From Pyrobaculum sp. 3827-6 (GTDB taxonomy: Archaea > Thermoproteota > Thermoprotei > Thermoproteales > Thermoproteaceae), in NCBI RefSeq assembly GCF_025641885.1, contig NZ_JAOTQN010000001.1:124001-188000 (forward strand): DNA of 64,000 nt, read 5' to 3'. Made by a program: the position numbers and the translations under genes. This document shows, piece after piece, positions 31,007 to 39,541 of the stretch (position 1 is the first letter of the stretch; every line of letters starts with the position of its first letter). A model generated the notes under the pieces. That model saw only the letters and a list, made by a program, of their open reading frames with translations. It did not search any database and was not told where the DNA came from.

Positions 31007-31774
31007 CTAGGCTACGTTAGTTATGTCTGATAGAGTTCCTACAAACGTAAAATCGGTGAGGTAAATCTCTACGCTTTCTGGGTCCCACTCTATGTACTTG
31101 AGAAATGTACGTCCCTCGGCGGCCATTTTGGGTATTTCTCTAACATCGACGCCTGTAATCAACGGGTGGCTAGCCGGTAGCACTACAACCTTAATCTTGC
31201 CGCGCCTCTTACACGGCTCCTCGTAGAGGGCTTTACATATTTTCGTTCGTGAGGCATATATCTTGAGTATCGCCGGCTCCTTCACGGCGTAGCCTAGCTC
31301 GTCTCTAATCACCACGGCGGGGTGTGTATGGCCCATGATAACCCCCTCCGCCCGCTCTAAATCCTCCTTAGCCGGCTTTACATGTCCGTGAAAGAGCAGG
31401 TACCTCTCAAGGAGTACCCCCCTGGCTGGCGCCACCTCGACGCCCTCTATGCCGCTTGCAATCTCCTGGAGGAGGGAGTCGTGGTTGCCTGGTATTAGGA
31501 GGAGCGGTATCTTTCTCGCCACGGCTCTGAGGAACGTCTTTACCTCCTCGACGCTTTCCCGGGGCACCGGGAGCTCGTGCTTCACGTCGCCTAATATAGC
31601 CACCGAGGTTACGCCGTGGTGATCCACAAGCTCGAGAACGCCGTCGATCAGCTTCCGGGTCTGGCTCATAACATTTATCCCGCGTTCCCTCCTCAACTCT
31701 ACCTCGTACCCCACGTGGGTGTCGGCTAGTAGCAAGATCTTCTCGCGGCGGAGGCTCAGCACCACGCCTCTCAC
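31007..31774 (-). CDS. Calcineurin-type metallophosphoesterase (COG1407)
   Basis: This 255-aa protein has the binuclear metal motifs ADTHVGYE, ILGDVKHE, IPGNHDS, and GHTHP. The pattern THVGYE after the first Asp is typical of the ICC-like archaeal COG1407 group, which in many genomes is paired with Lhr-type helicases; an Lhr-type gene lies at 60180 but is not adjacent. The substrate is unknown. GTG start. The gene follows the ParA-like gene by 24 nt on the same strand. Confidence 0.87.
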   Translation of the reverse strand: MRGVVLSLRREKILLLADTHVGYEVELRRERGINVMSQTRKLIDGVLELVDHHGVTSVAILGDVKHELPVPRESVEEVKTFLRAVARKIPLLLIPGNHDSLLQEIASGIEGVEVAPARGVLLERYLLFHGHVKPAKEDLERAEGVIMGHTHPAVVIRDELGYAVKEPAILKIYASRTKICKALYEEPCKRRGKIKVVVLPASHPLITGVDVREIPKMAAEGRTFLKYIEWDPESVEIYLTDFTFVGTLSDITNVA

Positions 31775-31798
31775 GTAGCTACACCGTTCTATACAATT

Positions 31799-32308
31799 TT
31801 ATCTTTTCCCAGCGTCGACGCATTTGTAAAGCTTCACCGCCGCCTTAGCCATGTCAAGTGTGGCTATTGACCTAACTCTATAGGGAGGGACGCCCACTGC
31901 TCTGTGCACCGCCATCTTTTCGTCGAAACGCACCACGTGGACCTCTCCCAATCTGCCGTATTGCCTAAGGAAGTCTCTACCTGGACGCTTAATCACCTTG
32001 TTCAGCACCACCCCCAACACCGGCTTCCTGACTATTGCGTGCACCACCTCGACGGAGGCAAGCGTCTGGTAGTCCTCGTCAGCCACATAAATAACAGAGT
32101 CGCAACGGAGAAGCTCAGCCAGGTGGCGCCTATCAGTCAATTGAAAGGCTGGGAAGTCGACGATCAGAAGCCCAGAGCCGGGGCTTCCGCCCAGCGGCTT
32201 CACCACACGCGCCGGGTTGCCCAGCGCCCTCCAGACAAACGCCATTAGCTCGGCAAATGTACTTTTTCCAGTTCCCCCCTTGGCGCCGCTCGTGACGCAG
32301 ATCCGCAC
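31799..32308 (-). CDS. ParA/MinD-like P-loop ATPase (short)
   Basis: This protein is about 170 aa from the GTG at 32308 (a GTG at 32332 is also in frame but overlaps the TATAAAT at 32321-32327). It has the deviant Walker A KGGTGKST and a later LLIVDFPAFQL where ParA proteins have D-x-P-P. Several usual ParA segments between these two motifs are missing, so it is shorter than family members (about 250 aa). Orphan, with no ParB-like partner nearby. Role unknown. Confidence 0.75.
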   Translation of the reverse strand: MRICVTSGAKGGTGKSTFAELMAFVWRALGNPARVVKPLGGSPGSGLLIVDFPAFQLTDRRHLAELLRCDSVIYVADEDYQTLASVEVVHAIVRKPVLGVVLNKVIKRPGRDFLRQYGRLGEVHVVRFDEKMAVHRAVGVPPYRVRSIATLDMAKAAVKLYKCVDAGKR

Positions 32309-32362
32309 ACATTGTATTGCATTTATACCCACCTATAGTTAGCTAAAAAGCGTATATGGGAC

Positions 32363-33016: not shown

Positions 33017-35875
33017 GTGTACGCCTTTGTCGATCTGCCGTTTAGCCCCAGCGGGGTGACGCACCTCCTGCGCAGACACAGGACAGTCGGCTTCGAAAAG
33101 GAGCTCAGAGAGCTGGCCGAGGTGCTGAGGACGGTGAAGGAGGGCAACAACAACGTGCTCGCAGTGGTCATCGCGCCTTATGGCTGGGGCAAGAGCGAAT
33201 TGCTAGACGAGCTGGAGACCCTGGCCGAGGGGGAGGGGTTCGACGTGTACAGAACGGCGCTTTCACTAGAGGAGGACTTCGCCATAGAGGTGGCGTCGAA
33301 AAAACGGGACAAGCCTATGCTCGTATTAATAGACGAAGCGGATGAGCTCTCCCGCATCGTAGCTGTTCATAAACTAGGCGCGTTGAGCGACGATAGATTT
33401 GTCAAAGTGGTGCAGAAAGTCGCCACCTACATAAGAGCCCTCCTAGAGCCCAGATCGTACAGATACCTCCTAGGAGAACCAGAGAGGTTTAACAAAGTGG
33501 CTATCGTGGCGGCGCTGACGCCGCAGCTCTACTACACCATACTTAAGAACGTGGTGCCAGATGTCTTTGATCTGACAAGCGGCAGAGTCTACAGAGAGGT
33601 GGTAATAGACACGAGATTTCCGTTTTGGCAATTTGTGGAGCTTGTAAAGCAGAGACTACTCGCATATTCAGACGACGAGAGGATAAGAGAAATAGAGAGA
33701 GGCGAGCTAGACCAGTTGAGCCCCTTCTCTATACATGAGCTGTCGGCGGTGTACCACCTGGCGAAGCGGAGAGGGGAGGCCGCGCCTAGGCCTCTGCTGA
33801 AGCTAATGGCAAGGCTCTTCCAGATAAAGAAAGAGGGGGGGAGGCTGGCGCGCCTCCTAAGAGAAGAGGGGTTTGACCTAGACGTAGACGACGAAATTCT
33901 GGAACTCGCATTCGCCGCAATACCGGTGAAATACAAAAAGCCGTATCTAAAAGAAGTGCACCTCTACAGAATACCCTTCGAGGATAAAGACGCCATGAGT
34001 GTTGCTAGGGAGTACGTCGCGGCGAGAGGCAAGGAACTGGACATAAAGGATCCTAAAAACATATCCTACGAGCCGTACCTGTACTACTCCCTGGTGGAGG
34101 GGGGGAGGCTCTTCCTCTACCTAATCGCCGAAGAGGATCTTGCCCTAGAGAGATATTCACTTGGCAGAGGATACATTGTTTCTGAAGACGTGGCGAAGCT
34201 CGTCGGCTGGGAGGAGGCGCAGGCAATCGCCGCGGTGGCAAAGGAGTACAGCCAGCGGCTGGAGAACCCAATAGCCCTGCTGGAAGAAGCCGAGAGGGCG
34301 CTGTCGCTGGAGGGTATAAGGCTGAGGCGTTGTTGCGGCTACGCGCTGTGGAATAACAACATGGGCCTGCGCGAGGCCTACCTATTCCTGTACATCGACA
34401 GAGAGGAGGAGTTGAGGAAAATCTCCGAAGAGCTCTCAGAAGTGGCGACGCAGGGCGTCTTAAACGGCTACGTAGTCGACTACCTCAACGTCTTTGTCGT
34501 AAGCCGCGTCTTGCTCACCGACACGATACAACAAGCCTTGGCCCCCCTAATGACTGCCTACTGGAAGCGCCACTTCCGCGACCCAGTGTCGAAATTCGCC
34601 ACTGTGGAGATATACGGCGCCGACAAGTACGAGAAGCTGAAACAGGAAATTGTAAAATACGTGATCGACAAGTTGCTGAAGAGAGGGGAAAAGCCACCCG
34701 AGTTTGTAGACGCCGTGAGACTCGGGAGGGAGAAGGCGAGAGAGAACATACTCAAATATACCATAGCGCTGAGGAAGGGCAGGGAGAAGAAGATCGTGGC
34801 GCTTGTAAAAGCCGCCGAGGCGCTGGACGGCGGAGGAGACGTAGAGGGGCTTAGGTCATACCGCGAAATCGAGGAAATTCTACTCTCAGCCTTCGAAGAG
34901 TCGATACATGAGAAAGAACTGAAATCGCTCATAGCAACGCTGTTCCCAGTAAACCTATGGAGAGAGATGAGGGAAGAGGACCTCATTGAGTTAATGAAGC
35001 TAAGAGGCGTCGTGGTGCCGCTTGGCGAGAGGCTGTACAAGTACAGAGACGACCTAGCCAAGAGATACATCTCCGATATCCTGCGCCAGTTAGAAGCTCT
35101 CAGAGAGGTGAGAGTCGAGAAGCCGACCCCGCTGGGGCCTGTGAAACTAGTGAAGAAGATGGACATAGGGGAGTTAAAGACTTCAATAGCAGATAGACAA
35201 GACTATGCCAAGGCCTTGAGAGAAGCTGTGTTGAAACTGCACGAAGCCAGGGAAATGTACGAGAAAGTCAAAGAAGAACTGGAGCGAGAAGCCGAGGAAA
35301 AGGCCAGGCTATTGAGGAGGATATCGACGGTGCTAGACAAGTATCCACAGAGGAGGAAGTTTATAGATCTAGGCAGGCTAGACGAGAATACTATAAGAAG
35401 AGAGGAGTCAATCGTCCAGAAGGCCGAGGAGGCGTTGAAGATCTGGGGCGGCGTTAGGCAGATGGCCAGCGCAGTGGGCTCGCGGCTAGACGTGGAGAGG
35501 GACCTAAAGCTTCTGCTGGAGCTACCGGAGCCCTGGCTTGACGACTACGTGGCGGCTCTTAAGATATACGCCGCCGAGATCGAGAAGAGATACGGCGCGT
35601 TGATGGAGCTGGAGAGGGCTAGAAAAGCCGCCTTGGAGTGGCTAAGGGCTAAGCTCGGGATTGAGGAAGAGGATTTAGACAAGGCCCTGGACATAGCCGC
35701 CGCGAAAACTGGCGTACGTAGAAAGTTGCTAGAGTCAGTGGCCCGCCGGGGGAGAGGCGCCGTACTAGACGTCGACGAGCTGGCGAAGGAGTCGGGTGTT
35801 GAGAAAGAGGAGGTTGAGAGAGACCTAGAAAAGCTCTACAAAGCCCGTGTAATTGAGAAGAAATATGTCGCCTAG
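33017..35875 (+). CDS. Large AAA/STAND-like ATPase, first gene of a NurA operon
   Basis: This 952-aa protein starts at a GTG about 24 nt after CATATAAGA. An opening FEKELRELAEVLRTV precedes Walker A APYGWGKS (53-60) and Walker B LVLIDEADE (102-110), an AAA/ORC-like arrangement. The middle (about 300-640) has no known motif. A coiled-coil-like part follows (LKLHEAREMYEKVKEELERE), and residues about 910-952 read as a winged helix (LDVDELAKESGVEKEEVERDLEKLYKAR). It is not HerA. The next gene starts 11 nt before its stop, and the third is a NurA nuclease, so a DNA-processing motor is inferred. Confidence 0.8.
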   Translation: MYAFVDLPFSPSGVTHLLRRHRTVGFEKELRELAEVLRTVKEGNNNVLAVVIAPYGWGKSELLDELETLAEGEGFDVYRTALSLEEDFAIEVASKKRDKPMLVLIDEADELSRIVAVHKLGALSDDRFVKVVQKVATYIRALLEPRSYRYLLGEPERFNKVAIVAALTPQLYYTILKNVVPDVFDLTSGRVYREVVIDTRFPFWQFVELVKQRLLAYSDDERIREIERGELDQLSPFSIHELSAVYHLAKRRGEAAPRPLLKLMARLFQIKKEGGRLARLLREEGFDLDVDDEILELAFAAIPVKYKKPYLKEVHLYRIPFEDKDAMSVAREYVAARGKELDIKDPKNISYEPYLYYSLVEGGRLFLYLIAEEDLALERYSLGRGYIVSEDVAKLVGWEEAQAIAAVAKEYSQRLENPIALLEEAERALSLEGIRLRRCCGYALWNNNMGLREAYLFLYIDREEELRKISEELSEVATQGVLNGYVVDYLNVFVVSRVLLTDTIQQALAPLMTAYWKRHFRDPVSKFATVEIYGADKYEKLKQEIVKYVIDKLLKRGEKPPEFVDAVRLGREKARENILKYTIALRKGREKKIVALVKAAEALDGGGDVEGLRSYREIEEILLSAFEESIHEKELKSLIATLFPVNLWREMREEDLIELMKLRGVVVPLGERLYKYRDDLAKRYISDILRQLEALREVRVEKPTPLGPVKLVKKMDIGELKTSIADRQDYAKALREAVLKLHEAREMYEKVKEELEREAEEKARLLRRISTVLDKYPQRRKFIDLGRLDENTIRREESIVQKAEEALKIWGGVRQMASAVGSRLDVERDLKLLLELPEPWLDDYVAALKIYAAEIEKRYGALMELERARKAALEWLRAKLGIEEEDLDKALDIAAAKTGVRRKLLESVARRGRGAVLDVDELAKESGVEKEEVERDLEKLYKARVIEKKYVA

Positions 35876-36377
35876 GGTCACAATTTTGAGAGAAGAAGCC
35901 GCCGCGGAGGAGGGAGACGTCATAATAGACGCAAGAGGACAGCCTCAGTTCTTCGACGTAGTAATCCTAGGCGGGAGAGAGCTGAAGTCCATAATAGCCA
36001 TCGGAGTCATCAACGCCGGAGTCCCCATAGGCGTGGGTAAGTATACCAAGAAGCCCGTGGCGGCGGTGATAGGCGAGAAGATATACATCAAGGGGATGCC
36101 CCTCACCCTGTACGCCGAGATGGGGATTCTCGAAAAGGAGTTGGCAGAGGCGCTCAGCAAAACCAGCCACGAGACGGACATATTGCTTCGAAAGCTAAAA
36201 GAAATCGTCGTCGCCGAGAGGCGGCGCCACAAGAGGTCACAAACTCTCTCAATACTAGGACAGTACATAGCAGGCGAAATTAACGAACTCCCCCCACACC
36301 TAGAAGACCTACTGGGGGGGCTGGATAGGGAGTCGATAAGGAAATTATTCGACCGCCTAGTTGAGGAGATTTACTAA
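35865..36377 (+). CDS. Hypothetical middle protein of the ATPase/NurA operon
   Basis: The protein is about 170 aa from the ATG at 35865 (a start four codons upstream is possible). The N-terminal half is beta-rich with short turns (VVILGGRELKSIIAIGVINAG, GKYTKKPVAAVIGEKIYIKG), which reminds me of the HAS-barrel that lets HerA dock to NurA. The C-terminal half is helical and basic (VVAERRRHKRSQTLSILGQYIAG). It overlaps the ATPase by 11 nt and the nuclease by one base. A linking adaptor between ATPase and nuclease is my inference; the family is not recognised. Confidence 0.72.
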   Translation: MSPRVTILREEAAAEEGDVIIDARGQPQFFDVVILGGRELKSIIAIGVINAGVPIGVGKYTKKPVAAVIGEKIYIKGMPLTLYAEMGILEKELAEALSKTSHETDILLRKLKEIVVAERRRHKRSQTLSILGQYIAGEINELPPHLEDLLGGLDRESIRKLFDRLVEEIY

Positions 36378-37126
36378 TGAGAGACCTCCTATCCGCCGTG
36401 CTCAGGCTGGCTGAGTTGGAGACCCCGCCGAGGCCTCTGGAGATACCCAGAGAGCTGAGTGAATTAGTCACTCCATGTGAGGAGGGGGGTAAGCCTATTG
36501 AGTACTACGCGGTAGACTCCGGCTACGTCACGCAGAGGGTGGGGCCGCGGGACGTCTTAATACAGTCAATAGTCGCCATCGGGCGAGACATCAAGAGAAA
36601 ATACATCGTCACTACAGTGACGGGCGACCCCCACGTCGAAGCGCGCATCCGGGAAATACGCTTTGCAGAGTTCATAAACTCAGACATAGTGCTGGTGGAC
36701 GGCCCCCTCACGCCCTATGTAAACACGGCCAGAATCGTGGGGGTATCCAAAGATCCGCGGCTTGCGAGATACGGGCCGAGAATACCTGACGCAGATCTAA
36801 GAGACAAATTCACAAAACTCTCCAGGTACGTGGGGGAGAGGGGGCTCGTAGAAGCTCTGTTAGCCAGAGCCCCCTCAGGCTCGTATCTACCCCCGGTGGA
36901 TCTAGGAGAGCTGGCTGGCACATTTTTCAAATCAGACTGGGTGATATATGTAGAGTTTCCAAAAAGCTATAGGCCGGAGGCCTTGTGCCAGCTATTTAGG
37001 AGGTATCCCATAAGGCTGAGGCTGGCGCATCACTTGGCAAAGGTTAATAGAGAGTATCTAAAAACAGTGAAGATAATGCTGTCAACGGTACTGGGCGCGC
37101 CGCCTCGTTTCAGGGATTTTCTATAA
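36377..37126 (+). CDS. NurA-family 5'-3' nuclease
   Basis: This 249-aa protein carries a NurA-type active-site set: Asp47 (YYAVDSGY), Glu93 (EARIREIRF region, Glu in RIREI), Asp108 (VLVDGPL), a following Lys125 (VSKDP) and a late His pair (AHHLAKVNRE). NurA resects DNA 5' ends in archaeal double-strand-break repair together with HerA and Mre11-Rad50. Here it is shorter than many NurAs and is coupled to a different ATPase by a TAATG overlap. Its C-terminus overlaps the opposite 46-aa gene by 6 nt. Confidence 0.85.
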   Translation: MRDLLSAVLRLAELETPPRPLEIPRELSELVTPCEEGGKPIEYYAVDSGYVTQRVGPRDVLIQSIVAIGRDIKRKYIVTTVTGDPHVEARIREIRFAEFINSDIVLVDGPLTPYVNTARIVGVSKDPRLARYGPRIPDADLRDKFTKLSRYVGERGLVEALLARAPSGSYLPPVDLGELAGTFFKSDWVIYVEFPKSYRPEALCQLFRRYPIRLRLAHHLAKVNREYLKTVKIMLSTVLGAPPRFRDFL

Positions 37127-38528: not shown

Positions 38529-39031
38529 TACTTGTAGAGACGCTTCTGTACCTGCTCAGAGGCGGGGAGGTCCTTCTGATTCTAAAAAAGCGGGGACTCG
38601 GGGCGGGCCTCTACAACGGCGTAGGCGGCAAGGTGAAGCCGGGAGAGACGCCGGAGGAGGCCGCCGTGAGGGAGGCCGTGGAGGAGATCGGCGTGAAACC
38701 ATTGCAACTGAATTGGGGCGGCCTTCTTGAGTTTTGGAATTTTGTAGACGGCGGCGTTGAGTCCGTCCACTACGTCCACGTGTTTACGTCGAATAGCTAC
38801 GTGGGGGAGCCGCGGGAAAGCGAGGAGGCCATCCCCCAGTGGTTTAGGAGGGAGGAGGTGCCTTACGACAAGATGTGGGAAGACGACCGCTACTGGCTTC
38901 CTATTGTGCTGGGAGGAGGGCGGATCTACGGGAAGTTCGAGTTTCAAAAATGGAAGTTGGTAAAGTGGTATCTCTACCTACTTGAGGAGGCTAGCCAGCC
39001 TCTCCTTGATCTGGTTAAGCTCGGCACGTAG
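38525..39031 (+). CDS. NUDIX hydrolase (MutT-like)
   Basis: This 168-aa protein has a complete Nudix box from Gly35 (GKVKPGETPEEAAVREAVEE, then IGV) with the metal-binding REAVEE. The preceding LYNGVGG is typical of ADP-sugar/8-oxo-dGTP type NUDIX enzymes; the length and the N-terminal VETLLYLLRGGEVLLIL fit MutT-like clean-up hydrolases. GTG start coupled to the aminotransferase. The last 54 nt overlap the opposite gene, the longest convergent overlap in the window. Confidence 0.9.
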   Translation: MILVETLLYLLRGGEVLLILKKRGLGAGLYNGVGGKVKPGETPEEAAVREAVEEIGVKPLQLNWGGLLEFWNFVDGGVESVHYVHVFTSNSYVGEPRESEEAIPQWFRREEVPYDKMWEDDRYWLPIVLGGGRIYGKFEFQKWKLVKWYLYLLEEASQPLLDLVKLGT

Positions 39032-39541
39032 CCTCTCCACCTCCTGCCTCAGCCTCTCGTTTTCCTCAGCAAGATCTTTACACTCCCTCGGCGCCGCGAC
39101 TTGTTGACACCTGTCGCTTCTGACCCAGTAGTAGAGCTCCGTCTTGTCTCTCCGCCACCGGAGCTCCCCAGTGGAGGGATCTAGCTCTATTTCGGTTATT
39201 ACCATGAATATGTCGCCTTTGTCCAAGCCGTGTCTAGGCGCCTGTTCGTTGAAAAACCACTCTTTCATCTCGTCGAAGATCTCTCTGCTGGTTCTCCTAA
39301 ACTCCTCAGAATCCCTAATCTTGTTAAAAATCTCCTCCCCCTGGGGCCCGAACTTCTCCCTAAGGGAGCCCGCCACTGCGCCAAACAGTAGCCTAAAGAA
39401 GTCGGGCCTCCCCCCGGCGCCGTATCTTCCGAATAGCCTCCCCGCCGAGGTCTTCCCCGTATTCCACCTGATGACGAGGATCTGCTTACCCGCCCTCTCC
39501 TCCACGTGGACCCTCTCTACCGTCCTCTCCTCCTCAGCCAT
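38978..39541 (-). CDS. Hypothetical protein with C-terminal coiled coil
   Basis: This 187-aa protein has an N-terminal beta part (VERVHVEERAGKQILVIRWN), a middle rich in aromatic and charged residues (EEFRRTSREIFDEMKEWFF) and a C-terminal leucine/glutamate coiled coil (LAEENERLRQEVERLRAEL). Family not recognised. It is divergent from the radical SAM gene at 39586 and overlaps the NUDIX 3' end by 54 nt. The coiled coil suggests dimerisation. Confidence 0.65.
   Translation of the reverse strand: MAEEERTVERVHVEERAGKQILVIRWNTGKTSAGRLFGRYGAGGRPDFFRLLFGAVAGSLREKFGPQGEEIFNKIRDSEEFRRTSREIFDEMKEWFFNEQAPRHGLDKGDIFMVITEIELDPSTGELRWRRDKTELYYWVRSDRCQQVAAPRECKDLAEENERLRQEVERLRAELNQIKERLASLLK

Follow-up and report, generated by a model that had tools for sequence, protein, structure and literature searches.

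The window analysed here is a stretch of 64,000 nucleotides (nt) from Pyrobaculum sp. 3827-6 (contig NZ_JAOTQN010000001.1, positions 124,001 to 188,000). Three open reading frames (ORFs) on its + strand encode, in this order, a large ATPase, a small middle protein and a divergent NurA nuclease, and this gene trio is the subject of the present work. The features of the locus, in window coordinates, are the following:

33017..35875, + strand: ATPase, 952 amino acids (aa), GTG start; N-terminal ORC/Cdc6-type AAA+ module (~1-285), central region (~286-720), coiled-coil helices (727-880) and C-terminal winged helix (~885-950)
35865..36377, + strand: middle protein, 170 aa from a conserved ATG; a longer ORF is possible from a TTG at 35853; family of unknown function
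36377..37126, + strand: divergent NurA nuclease, 249 aa
32976..32997, + strand: possible promoter of the operon, made up of TTTATCTACAG and then a TATA-like ACATATAA, ~20-40 nt ahead of the GTG, suggested by alignment of upstream regions and inspection

Direct reading of the letters revealed that the stop codon of the ATPase gene (35875) overlaps the conserved ATG of the middle protein (35865) by 11 nt, and that the stop of the latter and the start of NurA share the sequence TAATG. The three-gene operon proposed in the first-pass annotation, a model's reading of the DNA alone, was borne out in its coordinates and overlaps, and the trio probably constitutes a single co-transcribed unit. The TTTATCTACAG element and the TATA-like stretch before the ATPase start were similar in several Pyrobaculum and Thermoproteus loci (Thermoproteaceae), the pattern being not clearly above chance in the window itself; together they represent a possible candidate promoter or regulatory site.

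Conservation of the trio in Thermoproteales

Of 61 sampled genomes, 41 had a match to the ATPase sequence of the window, and every one of these belongs to the same order. When 397 genomes of the phylum were searched with a profile built from 30 ATPase relatives, a full-length or near-full-length ATPase was detected in 28 of 29 Thermoproteales genomes (order count at a completeness filter of 85%); in the 368 sampled genomes of other orders no full-length ATPase was found, only coiled-coil, winged-helix or P-loop fragments. The middle protein was present in all 25 Thermoproteales genomes of a 90% sample and gave two weak fragments outside the order, and the trio is usually single copy. A scan of 84,980 species, which depends on conserved peptide patterns and could miss very distant relatives, located the ATPase only in Thermoproteales or in unplaced Thermoproteota/Thermoprotei records (Pyrobaculum, Thermoproteus, Caldivirga, Thermocladium, Vulcanisaeta and metagenome-assembled genomes). 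No ATPase relatives were found in the sets of phages, plasmids and viral contigs searched, and a viral or plasmid origin of the trio was rejected on that account. The trio is found only in Thermoproteales, where it is almost universal and apparently inherited vertically.

The linkage of the three genes was assessed in 29 Thermoproteales loci from other genomes. The order ATPase-middle protein-NurA was kept in 27 of them, the genes being contiguous, on one strand and separated by overlaps or very short gaps, a recurrence far beyond chance. These loci come from three families; their gene neighbourhoods fall into seven groups that have little in common with one another, and their most distant proteins are only ~20-30% identical. 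Since the flanking genes common to Pyrobaculum and Thermoproteus are essentially not shared with the other six groups, the trio has stayed together as its surroundings changed. The co-occurrence on which the first-pass annotation had staked its proposal therefore holds across the order. Pairwise protein distances of the trio members correlate (r=0.93-0.98), as expected from joint inheritance. Furthermore, the trio is under purifying selection, the ratios of nonsynonymous to synonymous substitution (dN/dS) against the nearest genome being 0.08 for the ATPase, 0.28 for the middle protein and 0.16 for NurA. On one contig (g8 metagenome contig, L061:3182-3854) nothing of the trio follows the ATPase, though the close relatives L057 and L058 have both other genes, reflecting either loss or an assembly difference.

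Composition of the three proteins

The product of the third gene matched the Pfam NurA family at 9.6e-9 (35.5 bits against a cut-off of 21), as did 27 of its 29 relatives, and its family profile matched the NurA structure 2ygk at 3.7e-7. Residues D47, E93, D108 and Y210 are invariant, in columns that align with conserved residues of 2ygk; we take them to be the published catalytic D58, E114, D131 and Y291 of S. solfataricus NurA, in which H299 lies eight residues past that Tyr. The residue eight positions after Y210, H218, is present in Thermoproteaceae and mostly replaced by Asp in other members. The first-pass identification of a NurA gene was upheld by these matches: judged by its sequence, the third protein is a genuine NurA that has diverged yet keeps the catalytic carboxylates, and as such it would be expected to act as a nuclease in the form of a toroidal dimer.

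The host genome (2.3 Mb, completeness 99.99%) encodes four NurA proteins. Three of the genes (104081, 529265 and 1003646) lie within ~3 kb of a DUF87/HerA-type ATPase gene, which answers the question raised at first pass of whether herA-nurA pairs exist elsewhere in this genome; the fourth (window 36377-37126) has no such ATPase nearby. The table of a Pyrobaculum survey lists three families of nurA-herA together with a single unmatched herA family, and the family of the trio NurA appears to be missing from it (PMC3396285). The same source describes a CRISPR-linked nurA-csm6-herA cluster that resembles the trio in being a three-gene Thermoproteales cluster with a NurA paralogue and differs in having HerA and csm6 and in lying near CRISPR arrays (PMC3396285); in the host genome it appears to be a separate locus at ~G000:C1:529-533 kb. 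A further gene (G000:C1:935557-936699) encodes a HerA with a HAS barrel and has no adjacent NurA; it is perhaps the unmatched herA family of the survey (PMC3396285), and might conceivably serve the fourth NurA in trans. No description of the trio was found in full-text literature searches, which covered open-licence papers only, so that this absence is no proof. Compared with the HerA-NurA end-resection complex of Sulfolobus, Thermococcus and Deinococcus, the trio shares a NurA gene beside an ATPase gene and conserved NurA catalytic carboxylates. It differs in that its ATPase is of ORC/Cdc6 type rather than a DUF87/HerA protein with a HAS barrel, in the additional protein of unknown family, in its smaller and divergent NurA, and in its confinement to Thermoproteales.

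The ATPase contains the Walker A motif APYGWGKS and the Walker B motif LVLIDEADE recognised at first pass, and their key residues (G56, G58, K59, D106, E107, D109 and E110) do not vary among 30 relatives. The alignment of relatives revealed that T168, R190 and R258 are invariant too; by inspection they are candidates for sensor 1, the Arg finger and sensor 2, respectively. The AlphaFold2 (AF2) model (predicted local distance difference test, pLDDT, 85.5; predicted template modelling score, pTM, 0.48) starts with the AAA+ module, which extends to ~285, and continues with a central region of mixed structure, the long helices of 727-880 and, at the C-terminus, a helical winged-helix region. The coiled coil and final winged helix foreseen earlier are supported by this model and by TrmB/MarR matches to the winged helix among ATPase relatives, which also yielded AAA_16 and BrxC_BrxD matches. 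The best Foldseek match was Pyrobaculum Cdc6 (1fnn, 4.6e-5), and further fold matches were Sulfolobus Cdc6/Orc1 (2qby) and eukaryotic ORC subunits (below 1e-3), MuB and RuvB. Profile comparison of the ATPase module gave 71% with Orc1/Cdc6 over the Walker A/B region, 87% with BrxD-like proteins over 69 columns of the P-loop region, and 20% with HerA, a figure that is indicative only, as the HerA side was a single sequence.

The N-terminus of the ATPase is an AAA+ module nearest to Orc1/Cdc6 and is not HerA, and its central region (~286-720) is novel. The protein has in common with Orc1/Cdc6 initiators the fold of the AAA+ module and a C-terminal winged helix, yet it is longer (952-1245 aa against ~400 aa), has a large central region and a coiled coil, lies in an operon with NurA, coexists with canonical Orc1/Cdc6 (present in 31 of 31 genomes checked), and did not match the Orc1/Cdc6 family model TIGR02928 in an NCBIfam scan. 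Neither the ATPase nor any of its 29 relatives had a HerA/DUF87 or HAS-barrel match in Pfam, and the trio positions are absent from the DUF87 match list of the same genome; an identity as HerA was therefore ruled out. SMC/Rad50 families were likewise missing from the Pfam and NCBIfam matches, and this absence, together with the AAA+ fold, excluded an SMC/Rad50 protein. The family searches thus gave no known HerA or SMC family, leaving in place the first-pass view of an AAA/ORC-like, non-HerA ATPase. BREX BrxC/BrxD was also discarded for want of a match above the cut-off: Pfam BrxC_BrxD did not match the window ATPase at E<=10, matched 7 of 30 relatives weakly (best 2.1e-5), and had no match at 1e-5 in the host genome and most genomes of the order. 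The likeness to BrxC/BrxD ends at the P-loop region, and the genes seen next to the trio included no BREX partner. PDB profile matches of the whole ATPase were mostly coiled-coil artefacts.

In another lineage of the phylum, an ATPase of 901-908 aa with a similar Walker A motif (APYGSGKT) is conserved beside a coiled-coil-like protein of ~372 aa (L100:6101-8827, L101:7018-9723 and L102:5363-8089). It was not accepted as a trio relative, the similarity covering only 48 P-loop columns and no NurA being seen beside it.

The middle protein has a beta-rich N-terminal half and a helical C-terminal half with an invariant ER motif (E118 R119) in an alignment of 29 relatives, and its AF2 model (pLDDT 85.8, pTM 0.59) consists of seven strands followed by helices. 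It had no convincing match in Pfam, PDB or PHROG, no Pfam family was common to more than three of 29 members, no PDB fold was found at E<=0.001, and no HerA structure was among the 50 best fold matches. The HAS-barrel resemblance suggested at first pass was not sustained, since the profile probability against HAS barrels of the same order was 0.2% (positive control, 100%). An amidotransferase-like beta half (best folds HisH/PdxT-like and GH42 at E>=0.06; 0.2% in a profile comparison with 14 PdxT sequences) and a degenerate NurA (0.6-1.4%) were also rejected. As far as the libraries searched go, the middle protein is a new family. Taken as a whole, the earlier reading stood as regards the single unit, NurA, the ORC/AAA+-like non-HerA ATPase, the co-occurrence and the separate herA-nurA pairs, and fell as regards the HAS barrel.

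A proposed role in DNA processing

The trio probably performs core DNA maintenance in Thermoproteales by an undescribed mechanism. We propose, with about an even chance of being right, that it is a housekeeping, ATP-controlled NurA nuclease specific to this order, in which an ORC-type AAA+ protein instead of HerA brings NurA to DNA. In this model the ATPase and the nuclease would form a physical complex acting on DNA. The ATPase would oligomerise on DNA via its winged helix and AAA+ contacts. It would use ATP for recognising a particular DNA structure or for loading onto it, ends or stalled forks being the likeliest targets, and would then hand the DNA to the NurA dimer. Bridging of ATPase and nuclease would fall to the middle protein, which would stand in place of the HAS barrel of HerA and is probably bound for the most part to NurA. 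The likely outcome would be that strands are resected or degraded during replication-linked repair, in cells that also have the three canonical HerA-NurA pairs; the exact job could be resection, fork repair or DNA exchange. Several points weigh against this proposal. The low pTM of the ATPase model makes its domain arrangement uncertain and not reliable, the link to DNA ends or forks is drawn solely by analogy with the known role of NurA, and the activity of some NurA proteins outside Thermoproteaceae may differ, given the replacement of the catalytic His by Asp. Moreover, in two metagenome assemblies the trio is not intact: at L061 neither the middle protein nor NurA occurs next to the ATPase, and at L042 the ATPase lies apart. 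In the latter locus the middle protein and NurA are still adjacent although the ATPase has moved, which supports the proposal.

The main alternative, in line with the HerA-like assembly inferred at first pass, is a HerA-like threading motor, in which the ATPase would form a hexameric ring and pump duplex DNA into the NurA dimer, the middle protein serving as a dock similar to a HAS barrel. The known partner of NurA is indeed the hexameric HerA docked through HAS barrels (PMC9960219), and a motor stays conceivable because the ring motor RuvB is among the ATPase fold matches. Nevertheless, we regard threading as unlikely: HerA/DUF87 and HAS-barrel matches are lacking in the ATPase and the middle protein, the latter scored 0.2% against HAS barrels, and the best ATPase folds are ORC/Cdc6 initiators, for which ring threading is less expected. 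ORC-type modules mostly act as ATP-controlled DNA loaders or switches, and for this reason loading is preferred over HerA-style threading.

A replication-initiation or chromosome-organisation complex, with NurA mainly structural or regulatory, would suit the ORC/Cdc6-type AAA+ module and winged helix of the ATPase and an order with divergent chromosome biology, which uses ThermoDBP and has no FtsZ or ESCRT division machinery (PMC7617429). It is quite improbable, as canonical Orc1/Cdc6 occurs in all 31 genomes checked and the NurA carboxylates are invariant. We give equally little credence to the idea that the trio generates substrate for the Ted pilus, which is specific to Thermoproteales, by cutting and resecting donor or imported DNA, taking the place of a relaxosome. 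HerA-NurA had been put forward as the source of single-stranded DNA for Ted, a question still open (PMC9905601), and trio and Ted have the same order-wide range; this shared range is, however, weak evidence, because any order-specific core gene has it, and no Ted-type linkage was noticed, nor was a DUF87-type ATPase among the matches listed in the trio neighbourhoods.

A patchy distribution is the norm for defence genes. An antiviral form of the defence role considered at first pass, with an ATPase sensor that would switch on a NurA effector, can draw on the occurrence of ORC/STAND/BREX-like ATPases and HerA-type nuclease pairs in defence and on weak PADLOC matches, which cover the P-loop, the coiled coil and the winged helix. 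It is nevertheless very improbable: almost all genomes of the order have the trio, usually in one copy and apparently by vertical descent, its flanks in Thermoproteaceae are housekeeping genes, and relatives are lacking in the plasmid and viral sets searched. Housekeeping repair or replication is preferred over defence because of this universality, the single copy and the joint inheritance.

Going further, it is conceivable, though we hold this only tentatively, that the trio forms a class of its own among ATP-dependent nuclease machines. An AAA+ loader of ORC type, with coiled coil and winged helix built in, would then control NurA through a new bridging protein, and the machine would be core to chromosome maintenance or DNA exchange across Thermoproteales. 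HerA is considered to be the partner of NurA, and the trio gives NurA a different ATPase and an unknown third subunit alongside intact HerA-NurA pairs. Because Thermoproteales replace the usual single-stranded DNA-binding protein (SSB) by ThermoDBP, divide without FtsZ or ESCRT and exchange DNA without a known relaxase, an undescribed core DNA-processing machine offers a testable lead on open questions of their biology.

Neighbouring genes

ThermoDBP, the SSB substitute of Thermoproteales, is encoded at window 38978-39541 on the - strand (Pfam ssDBP_DBD, 2.3e-65). In the majority of Thermoproteaceae loci, and not in other families, it lies downstream of the trio by two genes. A strict phyletic link between trio and ThermoDBP is weakened because three sampled genomes of one genus (G025, G035 and G044) gave no ThermoDBP match and keep the ATPase. 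On the other side of the trio, at window 31007-32332 on the - strand, a calcineurin-like phosphoesterase gene adjoins a small P-loop (CbiA/ParA-like) gene, an arrangement kept beside the trio in Thermoproteaceae only.

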